DNA of 64,000 nt, from NCBI GenBank assembly GCA_027490725.1, contig JAIXXN010000037.1, positions 1-64,000 on the forward strand, in the 5' to 3' direction. A program made the position numbers and the translations under genes. Positions 47,862 through 53,100 of this stretch are shown piece by piece. The stretch's first letter is position 1; every line of letters begins with the position of its first letter. The notes under the pieces were generated by a model. It was not told the origin of the DNA. It was given only the letters and a program-made list of their open reading frames with translations, and did no database searches. Source of the DNA: Oxalobacteraceae bacterium. GTDB lineage: Bacteria; Pseudomonadota; Gammaproteobacteria; Burkholderiales; Burkholderiaceae_D.

Positions 47862-49256
47862 ATGCAAGCACGCTTTACTTATTCCGCGGCTCTGGCCACC
47901 CTGCTAGCCCTGCCAGCCCTGCTGGCGCCGGCGCTCAGCCAGGCCCACGACGAACTTAACGGCCCGGCGCCGATCAGTTCCGCCGCCACACCCCCGAATC
48001 CCCCCCGCCTTCCCGCTTCCGACCTCGCTCCCCAGAAAATTATCAAACCGGCCAGCAAAGCTGCCGAAGATGATGCTTTCCACGAAAAAGATGTGTGGGG
48101 CCGGATCCGTAGCGGTTATGCGATTCCCGACATTAGCAATGAACTGGTGGGCAAGCATGTCAACTGGTATGCCACCCGTCCCGATTACATCGCCCGCACC
48201 ACCACGCGCGCGTCACGCTACCTGTTCCACGTTGTCACGGAACTGGAAAAGCGCGGTATGCCGACCGAACTGGCACTGCTGCCCTTCATCGAATCGGCGT
48301 TTAACCCGCAAGCCCTGTCAAGCGCGAATGCGGCCGGCATGTGGCAGTTCGTGCCGGGCACCGGCCGTGATTACAAGCTGAAGCAGGATGCCTTCAAGGA
48401 CGAACGGCGCGGCATCATCGCCTCGACGGACGCCGCGCTCAGCTATCTGCAACGCCTCTACGATATGTTCGGCGACTGGCAACTGGCGCTGGCCGCCTAT
48501 AACTGGGGCGAAGGCTCGGTGCAGAAGGCCATCAAGCGCAATCAGGCCGCCGGCAAGCCCACCGATTTCGAAAGTCTGGCCGAACTGATGCCGGCTGAGA
48601 CTCGTAACTATGTGCCAAAACTGCAGGCGGTGAAAAACATCGTCGCCAATCCGGCCCAGTACGGCCTGAACCTGCCGGCCATCGACAATGCGCCGTATTT
48701 CACGGCCGTCGACAAGACCAGCGATATCGATCTGACCATTGCCGCCCATCTGGCGGAACTGTCGGTGGATGAATTCAAGGCCTTGAACCCGCAATTCAAA
48801 CGTCCGGTGATTACCGGCGACGAACAGACCAAGATTCTGCTGCCGAAAGAAAACGCTGACAAATTCCACTTGAATCTGGCCCAGTGGGGAAAAAACCTCT
48901 CGACCTGGACCACCCACAAGATTACTAGCGCCCGCGAAAGCATCGGCACACTGGCTTCGCGCTTCCACACCACGCCGGATGTAATCCGTCAGGCCAATAA
49001 CATTCCCCAGAAGACCGCGCTGAAAGCCGGTTCGACGATTCTGGTGCCGAAACTGTCGACCAGCGCCAGCATCGATATTTCGCCGGAAATCGAGCGTACT
49101 GCCACGCTGGCCTTCGAGGCCGAGCGCGAACGCAGCAGCAAGAGTGGCAAAAGTAAAAGCGAAAAAGCCAGCAAGTCCGGCAGCGTCTCGCTGGTGAAAG
49201 CCCGTGCCAGCCACGACAGCGGCAAGCACAAGAAACGTCAGCGTAACGACGACTGA
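47862..49256 (+). CDS. mltD: MltD-like lytic murein transglycosylase
   Basis: A 464-residue SLT-fold lytic transglycosylase. Signal peptide about 1-28 (ending SQA, no lipobox, unlike E. coli MltD), then the catalytic domain with Glu144 in LLPFIESAFNPQA, AAGMWQFVPGTGRDYKL and LALAAYNWGEGSVQKAI. One clear LysM domain (about 350-396) follows, with a weaker LysM-like stretch near 290-328. The C-terminus is a long Lys/Ser-rich tail (about 420-464). It cleaves peptidoglycan glycan strands in the periplasm. Confidence 0.93.
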   Translation: MQARFTYSAALATLLALPALLAPALSQAHDELNGPAPISSAATPPNPPRLPASDLAPQKIIKPASKAAEDDAFHEKDVWGRIRSGYAIPDISNELVGKHVNWYATRPDYIARTTTRASRYLFHVVTELEKRGMPTELALLPFIESAFNPQALSSANAAGMWQFVPGTGRDYKLKQDAFKDERRGIIASTDAALSYLQRLYDMFGDWQLALAAYNWGEGSVQKAIKRNQAAGKPTDFESLAELMPAETRNYVPKLQAVKNIVANPAQYGLNLPAIDNAPYFTAVDKTSDIDLTIAAHLAELSVDEFKALNPQFKRPVITGDEQTKILLPKENADKFHLNLAQWGKNLSTWTTHKITSARESIGTLASRFHTTPDVIRQANNIPQKTALKAGSTILVPKLSTSASIDISPEIERTATLAFEAERERSSKSGKSKSEKASKSGSVSLVKARASHDSGKHKKRQRNDD

Positions 49257-49384
49257 CACCGGCACGTCGTGCAAAGTGGTGTGGCGACGTGGCAGCAGCG
49301 CGATAAATATCTGTTTAATCGCGTTTTTGCCACGTTTATCCCCCCTACCAGCCCTGAATCGCACCTTGCGGGCTGCTGAGCGGG

Positions 49385-49413
49385 TTGCAGTGACGGCGCA
49401 CTCGCCCTACAAT
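49385..49413 (+). promoter_or_regulatory. fabI promoter
   Basis: TTGCAG (49385-49390) and TACAAT (49408-49413) are 17 bases apart. The start codon is about 100 bases downstream, leaving a moderately long leader. The rest of the 260-base gap after mltD shows no gene. Confidence 0.6.
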
Positions 49414-49516
49414 CTCGGTCTTGTCCGGCCTCAGGCCTTTCAAACTCAACAACCTTACTGACGTTGCCAGCCCGCCCATCAGGTCAGCCCGGCACGCAGT
49501 TGCAATCGGAGTCATT

Positions 49517-50308
49517 ATGGCGTTCCTGCAAGGCAAAAAAATCCTCATCACTGGTTTGCTGTCGAACCGTTCCATCGCTTACGGTATCGCCAAAGCTTGC
49601 CACCGCGAAGGTGCCGAACTGGCATTCACCTACGTGGGCGAACGTTTTAAAGACCGCATCACCGAGTTCGCCGCCGAGTTCGGCAGCAATCTGGTGTATG
49701 ACTGCGACGTGTCGAGCGACGAGCAGATCGCTGCCCTGTTTGCCGATCTGGGCAAAAGCTGGAGCCAACTCGACGGTCTGGTACACGCCATCGGTTTCGC
49801 TCCACGCGAAGCCATCGCCGGCGACTTCCTGGACGGTCTGACGCGCGAAAACTTCCGCATTGCGCATGATATTTCCGCTTACAGCTTCCCGGCCATGGCC
49901 AAAGCCGCCCTGCCGCTGCTGAAAGAAGGTTCGTCGGTACTGACCCTGTCGTACCTGGGTGCCGTACGCGCCATTCCTTACTACAACACCATGGGTCTGG
50001 CCAAGGCATCGCTGGAAGCGTCGGTACGCTATCTGGCCGAAAACCTCGGCAAGATGGGCATCCGCGCCAACGGCATTTCCGCTGGCCCGATCAAGACCCT
50101 GGCTGCTTCCGGCATCAAGGACTTCGGCAAACTGCTGGGCTTCGCCTCCTCGCACGCACCGCTGCGTCGCAATGTGACGATCGAGGAAGTCGGTAATACG
50201 GCGGCCTTCATGCTGTCCGATCTGGCTTCCGGCATCACCGGCGAGATCACCTATGTCGACGGCGGCTTCTCGCACGTCATGGGCCTGAACGCCGAAGACT
50301 ACGCATAA
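49517..50308 (+). CDS. fabI: FabI, enoyl-ACP reductase (NADH)
   Basis: A 263-residue short-chain dehydrogenase-type enoyl-ACP reductase catalysing the last step of fatty acid elongation. NAD-binding [15 protein letters not shown], and catalytic Tyr146, Tyr156 and Lys163 in the FabI arrangement ([10 protein letters not shown]), followed by [24 protein letters not shown] precedes the ATG at 49517; the frame is open 32 codons upstream but not protein-like. It is the target of triclosan-type inhibitors in other bacteria. It appears monocistronic. Confidence 0.96.
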
Positions 50309-50692
50309 GCATCGCGTTGGCCCCGCCAGTCCCGGCTGGCCGGGGTCAGCGATATTATGTCGCACTGCAGGATAAGCTATGCAGCAGACCCGATCTGTTG
50401 TATAGTGTCGCCTGTGTGCTGCAATGCACGCGCTGCAACAAGATCAGCGCGCATTGGTCAGCAAGGTAGTACTAGCAGCATCGCAAGCCTTTAACGCATC
50501 AAGCTACGCTAGCATCAAGCTGATGTTGTTTATAAAGCCCTCCCGCCTTTGGTGTCGCACCTGACACCGTCCCGGCGCAAAGCTTTTGTGCCGAAATTTC
50601 ATTCTATTTTTGATTGAGTCATTTCGTTGTGGCAGGCGTTGCTATTTCGCGTACGGCTCCGCCCGTACGCCGGTTTTTTACGAAAGAACAGC
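50309..50692 (+). promoter_or_regulatory. Structured leader upstream of rhlE
   Basis: This 384-base gap has no gene. Near fabI a bulged GC-rich hairpin lies at about 50318-50348. GCATCAAGCT occurs twice around 50498-50523. Then three stem-loops approach rhlE: GGTGTC/GACACC (50551-50568), CGGCGCAAA/TTTGTGCCG with a three-base loop and one G-U pair (50573-50593), and an intrinsic terminator (50649-50679). TATAGT at 50401 and TATAAA at 50531 are possible -10 elements without good -35 partners. Confidence 0.55.
50649..50679 (+). terminator. Intrinsic terminator just before rhlE, probable attenuator
   Basis: GCGTACGG (50649-50656) pairs perfectly with CCGTACGC (50663-50670) across a six-base loop, and six Ts follow at 50674-50679. 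It ends 13 bases before the rhlE start codon, too close to serve the upstream gene 341 bases away, so it most likely regulates rhlE itself. Confidence 0.75.
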
Positions 50693-52084
50693 ATGACATT
50701 TGAAGCACTTGGTCTCAACACGTCCATTATCAAAGCCCTGACCGACGCAGGCTATACCAAGCCTACCCCGGTACAAGAGCAAGCGATTCCTGCCGCCATC
50801 GCCGGCAAGGACCTGTTGGTTTCCTCGCAAACCGGTTCCGGCAAAACGGCAGCATTCATGCTGCCTTCGCTGCACCGTCTGGCTGGCACCGATCCGGTCG
50901 CCGCTGGCAAAACGCCTAACCAGGAAATGCAAGCAGCCCGCGCCCGTGGCGAGCGTCCACGTTTCAAGGCTGCCCAGCCAAAAATGCTGGTCCTGACCCC
51001 GACCCGCGAACTGGCTCTGCAAGTTACTACCAATACCGACAAATACAGCGTCAACCTGCGTCGCCTGAAAGCCGTCTCGATTCTGGGTGGTATGCCTTAC
51101 CCTAAACAGATGCAACTGCTGGCCAAGAATCCAGAGATTCTGGTCGCTACCCCGGGCCGTCTGATCGACCACATGGAATCGGGCAAAATCGACTTCTCGC
51201 AACTGGAAATTCTGGTGCTGGACGAAGCCGACCGCATGCTGGACATGGGCTTCATTGACGACATCGAAAAAATCGTCGACGCGACGCCGTCCACCCGTCA
51301 GACCATGCTGTTCTCGGCAACGCTGGATGGCGTCGTCGGTAACATGGCGCGCCGCATCACCAAGGATCCGCAAGTGATCCAGATCCTGAGCGCCGCCAAC
51401 AAGCACGAAAACATCACCCAGCGCGTCCACTTCGTCGACGATCTGTCGCACAAGAATCGCCTGCTGGATCACCTGCTGCGCGACGAAGCGCTGGATCAGG
51501 CCGTGGTCTTCACCGCCACCAAACGTGACGCCGACACCATCGCCGACCGTCTGAACATCGCCGGTTTCTCGGCTGCCGCACTGCATGGCGACATGCACCA
51601 GGGCGCCCGTAACCGTACGCTGGACAGCCTGCGTCGCGGCCAGGTGAAGATTCTGATCGCCACCGACGTTGCCGCCCGCGGTATCGACGTGCCGACCATC
51701 ACCCACGTATTCAACTACGATCTGCCGAAATTCCCGGAAGACTACGTCCACCGCATCGGCCGTACCGGTCGTGCTGGCCGTAATGGTCTGGCCATCTCGC
51801 TGGTCAACCACGCCGAAGGCATGAACGTGAAGCGTATCGAACGTTTCACCAAGCAGCTGATTCCGGTCAACGTCATCGAAGGTTACGAGCCGAAGAAAAC
51901 CAGCTCGCCAGCACGTTCGAGCGCACGTCCGGGCGGCTGGAAGCCAGGCGACAACCGCACTGGCGCCAAGCCAGGCCAGCGTAGCTTCAGCAAACCAGGC
52001 GCAGCACCGCGCAAGGAAGGCGGCTACAAAGGTAGTAACCCACGCAGCAGCGACGGCGCCCGTCGCAGCTACGGCGATCGTTAA
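50693..52084 (+). CDS. rhlE: RhlE-type DEAD-box RNA helicase
   Basis: A 463-residue ATP-dependent RNA helicase. Q motif around residues 2-30 (FEALGLNTSIIKALTDAGY, PTPVQEQAIP), Walker A SQTGSGKT (45-52), PTRELALQ, DEAD at 177-180, SAT (208-210), and in the second RecA domain TDVAARGIDVP and HRIGRTGRAGR. A basic Gly/Ser/Pro/Arg-rich tail (about 395-463) fits RNA binding. The ATG at 50693 gives the normal N-terminus; the ribosome site is weak (GAAAGAA). RhlE proteins act in ribosome assembly and cold response. Expression is likely controlled by the terminator in its leader. Confidence 0.95.
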   Translation: MTFEALGLNTSIIKALTDAGYTKPTPVQEQAIPAAIAGKDLLVSSQTGSGKTAAFMLPSLHRLAGTDPVAAGKTPNQEMQAARARGERPRFKAAQPKMLVLTPTRELALQVTTNTDKYSVNLRRLKAVSILGGMPYPKQMQLLAKNPEILVATPGRLIDHMESGKIDFSQLEILVLDEADRMLDMGFIDDIEKIVDATPSTRQTMLFSATLDGVVGNMARRITKDPQVIQILSAANKHENITQRVHFVDDLSHKNRLLDHLLRDEALDQAVVFTATKRDADTIADRLNIAGFSAAALHGDMHQGARNRTLDSLRRGQVKILIATDVAARGIDVPTITHVFNYDLPKFPEDYVHRIGRTGRAGRNGLAISLVNHAEGMNVKRIERFTKQLIPVNVIEGYEPKKTSSPARSSARPGGWKPGDNRTGAKPGQRSFSKPGAAPRKEGGYKGSNPRSSDGARRSYGDR

Positions 52085-52096
52085 TCACGACGCCTA

Positions 52097-52123
52097 GGCA
52101 TTGCCAGCAACACTGGCAATGCC
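52097..52123 (+). other. Perfect 11-pair stem-loop after rhlE
   Basis: GGCATTGCCAG (52097-52107) pairs with CTGGCAATGCC (52113-52123) around a five-base loop, without a T tract. It sits between the rhlE stop and the true terminator and could protect the 3-prime end of the message. Confidence 0.7.
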
Positions 52124-52130
52124 TCCCTAG

Positions 52131-52163
52131 AACGCCACCGTCTCAAAGCCGGTGGCGTTTTTT
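52131..52163 (+). terminator. Rho-independent terminator of rhlE
   Basis: AACGCCACCG (52131-52140) pairs with CGGTGGCGTT (52150-52159), and the T run continues to 52163. Confidence 0.9.
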
Positions 52164-52207
52164 ATTGTGCGTCTACAATATCGGCTTCCCTGCCCCGTCT
52201 ACAAGGC

Positions 52208-52768
52208 ATGACTTCCGCGCACACCATGACAGAACAGGCCATTACCGCCACCGTGCTCAAGGAACGCTCACGTCTCGGCAACTTCATCCGGCGCCGGGTC
52301 AGCGATCCCACCGATGCCGACGACATTCTGCAGGATGTGTTCCACGAATTCGTGCAGGCCTACCGCTTGCCGGAGCCGATAGAACAGGTCAGTGCCTGGC
52401 TGTTCCGGGTGGCGCGCAACCGCATCATTGACCGCTTCCGCAAAAAAAAGGAAGTGGCGCTGGCCGATCTGGGCACGGCAGGCGAGGACGACGACGACAG
52501 TTATCACCTCGACCTGCTGCTGCCCTCGCCGGACGCAGGCCCCGAAGAAGCCTATGCGCGCACTCTGCTGCTGGAAGAACTGCAGGCGGCACTGGAAGAG
52601 TTACCGGCCGCCCAGCGCGAGGTGTTTGTCGCGCACGAACTGGATGGCATCAGTTTCAAAGCGATGGCCGAAGCCACTAACACCCCGCTCAACACCCTGC
52701 TGGCACGCAAACGCTACGCCGTGCAATACCTGCGTGCACGCCTTGCATATCTGTACGACCCCGATTAA
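52208..52768 (+). CDS. ECF-family RNA polymerase sigma factor
   Basis: A 186-residue sigma70-family factor with region 2 (LGNFIRRRVSDPTDADDILQ, DVFHEFVQAYRL, WLFRVARNRIIDRFRKKKE) and region 4 (LEELPAAQREVFVAHELDGI, FKAMAEATNTPLNTLLARKRYAVQYLR). The linker is acidic (EDDDDSY). ATG at 52208 or 52226 are both possible. The next gene, 11 bases on, encodes a small membrane protein where an anti-sigma factor would be expected. Confidence 0.88.
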   Translation: MTSAHTMTEQAITATVLKERSRLGNFIRRRVSDPTDADDILQDVFHEFVQAYRLPEPIEQVSAWLFRVARNRIIDRFRKKKEVALADLGTAGEDDDDSYHLDLLLPSPDAGPEEAYARTLLLEELQAALEELPAAQREVFVAHELDGISFKAMAEATNTPLNTLLARKRYAVQYLRARLAYLYDPD

Positions 52769-52779
52769 GGAGAAGCTCC

Positions 52780-53100
52780 ATGAAAAAGAAACTATTATTC
52801 ATCCCCCTGATTCTGGCCGCCATCGCTGCGCTGGCCGGCGTCGTGATGCTGCTCTGGAATGCCGTGATGCCCGGACTATTTGCGGGCTGCCAGAGCGTCG
52901 ACTACTGGCATGCGCTGGGTTTGCTGATACTCTGCCGCATCCTGTTTGGCGGCTTCCGTGGCCGCCACGGTCATGCCGATGGCCACTCCCATCGCGAACG
53001 CTGGGCGCGCTGGCAGGCCATGACGGCGGAAGAACGCGCCCAGTTCCACAAGGATCGCGGCAGCTTCTGCCGCCCGCGTCAGGAGCAACCCCCGCCTTGA
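52780..53100 (+). CDS. Small His-rich membrane protein downstream of the ECF sigma factor
   Basis: A 106-residue protein preceded by a strong AAGGAG site. Two hydrophobic segments (about 4-27 and 43-58) are followed by a His-rich stretch (GRHGHADGHSHRERW) and a tail with MTAEERAQFHKDRGSF. Four to five histidines in ten residues suggest metal binding. It has no recognisable anti-sigma zinc motif. Its co-transcription with the sigma factor makes it a candidate regulator or target, but this is inferred. Confidence 0.75.
   Translation: MKKKLLFIPLILAAIAALAGVVMLLWNAVMPGLFAGCQSVDYWHALGLLILCRILFGGFRGRHGHADGHSHRERWARWQAMTAEERAQFHKDRGSFCRPRQEQPPP

Follow-up and report, generated by a model that had tools for sequence, protein, structure and literature searches.

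Escherichia coli cspA has a cspA-type cold-shock leader, rne5 (Rfam RF00040) is the RNase E leader, and some ribosomal-protein leader RNAs mimic rRNA. The abstract of a published paper (PMC10989929) mentions feedback through the rne 5′ UTR. For rhlE of Caulobacter crescentus, excerpts of the published account (J Bacteriol 2017, PMC5472812) describe a 186-nt 5′ UTR with predicted stem-loops, a reporter whose expression went up in an rhlE null strain and down when the UTR was missing, and a strong rise of a translational fusion at 10°C; the transcriptional fusion showed no cold induction in the wild type. That the effect of RhlE runs through the UTR is not established by these excerpts (PMC5472812).

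The region ahead of an rhlE gene from an Oxalobacteraceae bacterium was analysed in a window of 64,000 nucleotides (contig JAIXXN010000037.1; 'the window' denotes this whole stretch of DNA). It carries a leader of ~280 nt without an Rfam entry, a candidate for a new family of cis-regulatory RNAs of an already known kind; its function is proposed from the sequence. Conservation, single copy, a fixed place before rhlE and structure are established for the leader by sequence comparison, and most likely it lets the cell adjust the amount of the helicase. A regulatory leader ahead of rhlE had been proposed in the initial annotation, and this proposal is supported.

Gene context and layout of the leader

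The gene behind the leader encodes a DEAD-box RNA helicase that was scored against NCBIfam models with 487.8 bits for CsdA, 412.9 for RhlE2, 410.6 for SrmB and 399.5 for RhlE, all below the curated cut-offs; as no equivalog cut-off was reached among the listed models and CsdA scored best, 'rhlE' is used as a provisional group name. Nine further places in the same genome matched the helicase, six of them with at least 39% identity and three weakly. The upstream gene was identified as fabI (NCBIfam, above cut-off). Right behind fabI lies a strong G+C-rich hairpin without a U-tract (GGCCCCGCCAG...CTGGCCGGGGTC, 50319-50350), which may end the fabI mRNA or shield its 3′ end. The features of the leader and its gene are given below in 5′ to 3′ order, each with the evidence by which it was placed.

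50401-50406, + strand: -10 box TATAGT, with a predicted transcription start at ~50413 (conserved columns; -10 scan)
50413-50424, + strand: box 0, TGTGTGCTGCAA, where the leader is predicted to begin (conserved columns)
50473-50489, + strand: box A, TAGCAGCATCGCAAGCC (conserved columns; listing of relatives)
50493-50530, + strand: hairpin Pa (alignment to model R2; covariation; chimera test)
50534-50547, + strand: box B, AAAGCCCTCCCGCC (mostly invariant or near-invariant columns in alignments A1 and A2)
50551-50568, + strand: hairpin P1, GGTGTC/GACACC (covariation; chimera test)
50573-50593, + strand: hairpin P2, CGGCGCAAAGCTTTTGTGCCG, whose sequence hardly varies (exact 19-mer; alignment)
50593-50600, + strand: box C, GAAATTTC, which opens an A/U-rich linker (conserved columns)
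50619-50628, + strand: box D, TCATTTCGTT (conserved columns)
50631-50642, + strand: box E, GGCAGGCGTTGC, consensus GGTTGGCGTTGC (conserved columns)
50649-50670, + strand: hairpin P3, GCGTACGG/CCGTACGC, the stem-loop initially annotated as a terminator (hairpin scan; chimera test)
50674-50679, + strand: U6 tract that gives P3 its likeness to a terminator (T-run count across relatives)
50682-50686, + strand: ribosome-binding site GAAAG (conserved columns)
50693-52084, + strand: rhlE, coding for a 463-aa DEAD-box RNA helicase of the RhlE/CsdA group (NCBIfam matches)

The predicted start of the leader lies just past the conserved -10 box, and the initially annotated hairpin forms its 3′ end. The 402 nt from 50309 to 50710 fold better than shuffled versions (z = -4.28, 0 of 100). 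A best -10 match of at least 5 of 6 positions was present in 154 of 164 leaders versus 49 of 164 mononucleotide-shuffled controls; as only the stretch 15-130 nt before box A was scanned, the distance to the start codon is partly imposed. The -10 box lies ~290 nt upstream of the ATG in the window and ~240-360 nt upstream in the examples printed, and by sequence the locus would have a long 5′ UTR with its own upstream promoter, as expected of a UTR of the Caulobacter rhlE type. From this position of the -10 box and the start predicted with it, transcription through the P3 hairpin is likely. Strings like GCGCTGCAA marked box 0 in 107 of 167 leaders, and GAAAG, GAGAG or GGAAA was found at most 32 nt from the start codon in 165 of 167. 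Box D contains TTTCGT, the complement of the ACGAAA that overlaps the ribosome-binding site.

Rfam 15 gave no match in the window at the gathering cut-off and none in 50250-50760 at E ≤ 5, in line with the annotator's remark that no named riboswitch is known to have such a layout. Among the titles and the beginnings of abstracts found in the literature none describes the present leader, which does not establish its absence from print. A mobile origin was considered and rejected, positions 50490-50700 being without match in plasmids or phages.

Distribution and conservation

The names Oxalobacteraceae, Duganella/Rugamonas (for the genus of the window, hereafter the genus) and Janthinobacterium (g139) were assigned from near-identical named relatives; the closest of these are Duganella and Rugamonas, and Duganella belongs to the Oxalobacteraceae. 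Leader DNA together with the first 68 coding bases had matches in 73 of the 74 genomes in the genus set; in many of these the match began only at query base ~204-222. A covariance search of relatives, which the initial annotation had suggested as a check, was carried out with a model spanning box B to box E (R1). Of the 392 family genomes, 365 contained this leader core (330 of the 346 good ones), with one match each at E ≤ 0.01; searches over more than 40 genomes used strict filters, so that weak matches are lost. The other 27 family genomes gave no match, and nine of these were still empty when searched again at E ≤ 1. Ten of 300 genomes matched in the order, all ten inside the family, and in the class sample the one match among 369 genomes was the window's own. 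The genome of the window contains a single R1 match; at E ≤ 1 a weak second match (E 0.2-0.9) appeared in 4 of 66 genomes.

Loci fetched via R1 (n = 91, window excluded) had the P2 string at most 330 nt before the RhlE start in 89 cases, and in the other two (L165 and L201) RhlE was present and the exact P2 string absent; the fetched loci are biased to high score or high RhlE identity, which is partly offset by 66 hand-picked genomes from 43 genera. Five leaders outside the training set of R1, chosen by the P2 string, were all found by the model (E ≤ 3.3e-13). Identity of the leader core was compared with that of rhlE third codon positions: it was 95.6% versus 78.3% among 30 leaders of the genus (higher in 434 of 435 pairs) and 77.2 versus 55.6% among 48 leaders of the family (1116 of 1128 pairs). 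By this comparison the leader core is under stronger constraint than the third codon positions of rhlE.

Single loci depart from this pattern. In Propionivibrio dicarboxylicus (L074, 1300-1431; Rhodocyclales) the leader core is present outside the NCBI family, with A-U in place of G-U and a longer loop in P2, and this leader may reflect either transfer or deeper ancestry. In Herbaspirillum sp. SJZ107 (L046, 1284-1443) the P1 loop has 51 nt versus 6 in the model, the leader core being otherwise intact. Several small genomes of g140, a genus of the family (~2 Mb; G377, G453, G482, G494, G503 and G513), gave no R1 match and other g140 members did; loss or divergence of the leader is possible in the non-matching genomes.

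Well-conserved rhlE leaders of their own were found in the Burkholderia group (14 loci aligned) and in the Nitrosomonadales group (16 loci aligned); in both, the printed examples lie behind TATAAT-like boxes. The leader of the Burkholderia group (L077-L080, L082-L092) is a different one with long near-invariant runs, e.g. CTCCAATCCAGTTTAGAAC and CGACGACTTGGGTATGCCGATTGGCG, and R1 was without match in five loci tested. Leaders of the Nitrosomonadales group (L093-L097, L099-L110) have CATCGT and ACGATG/GCGATG boxes ~60 nt apart that are complementary in many of those printed, which suggests a long-range helix. With filters off, a search of 15 of the 32 loci of the two groups with R1 gave seven weak matches (best E 0.28), none of them at the leader; homology as recognised by R1 was rejected for the 15 loci searched, and the leaders of the two groups may be diverged forms of one RNA or separate ones.

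Hairpins, covariation and the terminator

Pairing was analysed with a second model, R2, whose seed excluded the window. The R2 search covered 86 loci picked for a visible Pa, together with some harder ones; leaders of the Herminiimonas/Noviherbaspirillum type, among whose printed sequences Pa is not visible, were omitted from this set, as was the window, which was searched separately. From 49 dereplicated leaders, alignment A1 omitted L043, L046, L059 and L070, and A2 omitted L046, L059, L060, L065 and L074. R2 aligned the window copy at 50475-50603 (113.3 bits) with Pa formed and with a longer loop. This loop holds a 16-nt duplication (GCATCAAGCT twice, 50496-50521) that is absent from the relatives printed. 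The repeated 10-mer pointed out by the annotator is real (50496-50505 and 50512-50521), and some 10-mer repeat occurred in 88 of 1000 shuffles; as a regulatory site it is not supported, being part of this duplication. The annotator had also reported two further hairpins upstream; of the upstream hairpins in the hairpin scan two are real, at 50573-50593, which is P2, and at 50335-50350, just behind fabI.

In alignment A4 (82 distinct sequences) 94.3% of cells were paired versus 83.5 in shuffles, double-change cells numbered 183 versus 46, and the covariation score was 0.315 versus 0.124 shuffled and at most 0.057 in slid versions; pairs in which double changes occurred, 13 in all, were only modestly more numerous than in shuffles (10.2; reached in 5 of 500). 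As A4 was fitted via R2 to its own structure, which inflates pairing, a species-swap chimera test that needs no alignment is the better check. For Pa, where all nine model pairs had double changes in relatives (86.8% of cells paired, 13% not), the native hairpin was better than the median species-swapped chimera in 78 of 100 cases; for P1, with double changes in four of five model pairs and 99.5% of cells paired, it was better in 72 of 90. On these comparisons hairpins Pa and P1 covary. The pattern of P2 occurs once in the genome of the window, and its exact 19-mer, GGCGCAAAGCTTTTGTGCC, was found in 142 of 167 leaders, which had themselves been located by a looser P2 string. Six of seven P2 pairs never vary among the 82 distinct sequences, and since P2 hardly varies, its sequence as well as its pairing is constrained.

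The P3 segment could be excised in 161 of 167 leaders, and native P3 folded better than the median chimera in 102 of 115; by group, it lay below its own median chimera in 24 of 25 cases in the genus and 79 of 90 outside. Judged by this test, compensating changes maintain P3. In the window the P3 stem has eight pairs, six of them G-C, and a loop of 6 nt; a spacer of 3 nt (CGG) separates it from the T6 run, whose last T is 13 nt from the rhlE ATG (50693). Terminators were called where a stem with 8 or more pairs, 4 or more of them G-C, was followed by at least 6 T of 8 beginning 0-3 nt past the stem. When 50309-50692 was shuffled 1000 times with its dinucleotides kept, such a signal arose 7 times; over the whole window the same rule gave one site on the + strand and four on the - strand, and a looser scan of 49000-53000 gave eight terminator-like sites versus 4.2 (sd 2.2) expected. 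The hairpin with six Ts before rhlE is therefore real, as initially annotated; the word 'textbook' holds for the stem and the T6 and goes slightly too far for the 3-nt spacer.

A T-run of at least five after P3 was present in 25 of 25 distinct segments of the genus, in one of three of Janthinobacterium and in 12 of 88 elsewhere; with a looser rule of 5 T in 8 the counts were 25 of 25, 3 of 3 and 27 of 88. These groupings were drawn up on the assigned genus names given above. A G+C-rich hairpin with a U-tract ahead of the start codon, as in an intrinsic-terminator attenuator, is thus found in the window and the genus. P3 is widespread and the U-tract is not, and read from this distribution the terminator is a local addition to the leader.

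Function of the leader and comparison with known systems

The preferred reading is that the leader acts in cis to set expression of the RhlE-type helicase, with feedback from RhlE and with cold favouring expression (probability about 0.5). The analogy with the Caulobacter rhlE 5′ UTR favours a feedback leader that works via mRNA stability and translation. Expression of rhlE would be set through mRNA stability, translation or both; RhlE and a degradosome partner would act on the leader, giving negative feedback, and the leader structure would favour expression in the cold. P2 and its flanking A/U-rich boxes would be the likely recognition site. As a second, lineage-specific layer, some transcripts may end before the gene at the U-tract that follows P3 in Duganella and its close relatives. 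A bolder version, which we consider decidedly unlikely, makes the leader a sensor of helicase activity: RhlE would recognise P2 (GGCGCAAAGCUUUUGUGCC) in its own mRNA, its ability or failure to remodel the leader would decide decay, translation and, in Duganella and relatives, read-through at P3, and the leaders of other Betaproteobacteria (Burkholderia, Nitrosomonadales) would be diverged forms that do likewise as a class-wide set.

The initial annotation had instead proposed an attenuator, in which transcription mostly stops at P3 and its U-tract, with read-through permitted by RhlE, by cold or by an antitermination factor. Rarity of the terminator in shuffles (7 of 1000), the T-run in all 25 genus segments, the compensating changes in P3 inside the genus (24 of 25) and the predicted start upstream of P3 all speak for it, as does the cold induction of Caulobacter cspA, reported in the excerpts as transcription attenuation at optimal temperature (PMC5472812). 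Since the U-tract is retained in every genus segment examined, attenuation keeps some standing within the genus; since it is mostly absent outside the genus and Janthinobacterium (T-run missing in 76 of 88 distinct segments) and the rest of the leader is family-wide, attenuation would be at most a layer at lineage level and was not upheld as the core function. The 3-nt gap between stem and U-tract also counts against it. The sole competing pairing examined was P4, for which box E is a possible partner of CGCTGA behind P3 in relatives: this candidate (CGCUGA in the RNA) was, by eye, suggestive in some species and gained no clear support from the test, with -7.43 for native and -7.11 for mismatched combinations. 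As an account of the leader, attenuation is doubtful.

A cspA-like cold or translational switch, in which ACGAAAG stays masked by box D (UUUCGU), or by a run of pyrimidines close by, until refolding exposes it, is unlikely. Many leaders have a UUUCGU that is complementary to ACGAAA, and UUUCGUU of box D was the best predicted partner of the Shine-Dalgarno (SD) sequence in 7 of 43 folded leaders, with UUUCGCU in an eighth (positions read by hand), but in most of the 43 the best partner lay elsewhere. The box D/SD pairing was without covariation (native -4.68 versus mismatched -4.85 kcal/mol), a weak test as both sides are near-invariant. The mean predicted unpaired fraction of the SD over the 43 leaders was 0.36 at 37°C and 0.32 at both 20 and 10°C; simple unmasking of the SD in the cold is not supported, as predicted accessibility falls slightly and does not rise. 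Very improbable is a separate trans-acting small RNA that ends at P3 and merely shares its place before rhlE: the -10 box upstream and the terminator-like 3′ end in the genus would suit it, but most distinct leaders outside the genus lack the U-tract, the element precedes RhlE in the loci fetched, and conservation extends into the ribosome-binding site.

Being conserved, covarying and present in single copy before a helicase gene, the leader is a candidate for a new RNA family. If RhlE acts on its own message, the leader would show by what means a helicase can sense the unwinding it performs, and the near-invariant P2 would then be a defined RNA for studying target choice by RhlE-type helicases. 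A terminator in one genome may, as a caution, be a lineage-specific part of a wider regulatory RNA.

Compared with known systems, the leader resembles those of ribosomal-protein genes in being a covarying leader ahead of a gene for an RNA-binding protein. Mimicry of rRNA was rejected: unlike in rRNA-mimic leaders, the exact matches of the window leader to 16S/23S rRNA of E. coli K-12 were 8-10 nt long, which is common in shuffles (reached by 30-100% of mononucleotide shuffles). The E. coli sequences were used because the search of the window's own genome gave no rRNA match; the same searches were positive in 10 and in 9 of the 14 genomes used as controls. Like rne5, which gives feedback control of RNase E, it is the leader of an RNA-degradation gene and would likewise give feedback control; unlike rne5, it belongs to another gene and lineage and is without an Rfam match at E ≤ 5. 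With cspA-type leaders (Caulobacter cspA in the excerpts of PMC5472812) it shares a long structured leader, but the gene is different, no opening of the SD in the cold is predicted and no Rfam family matches. The Caulobacter rhlE UTR is shorter (186 versus ~280 nt) and comes from an alphaproteobacterium, a distant class; the excerpts describe neither a terminator nor a conserved RNA family for it (PMC5472812). In both cases an RhlE helicase gene is preceded by a long 5′ UTR, in the present case a predicted one, for which stem-loops are predicted, and by this analogy the present leader probably responds to feedback and to cold as the UTR of Caulobacter rhlE does.
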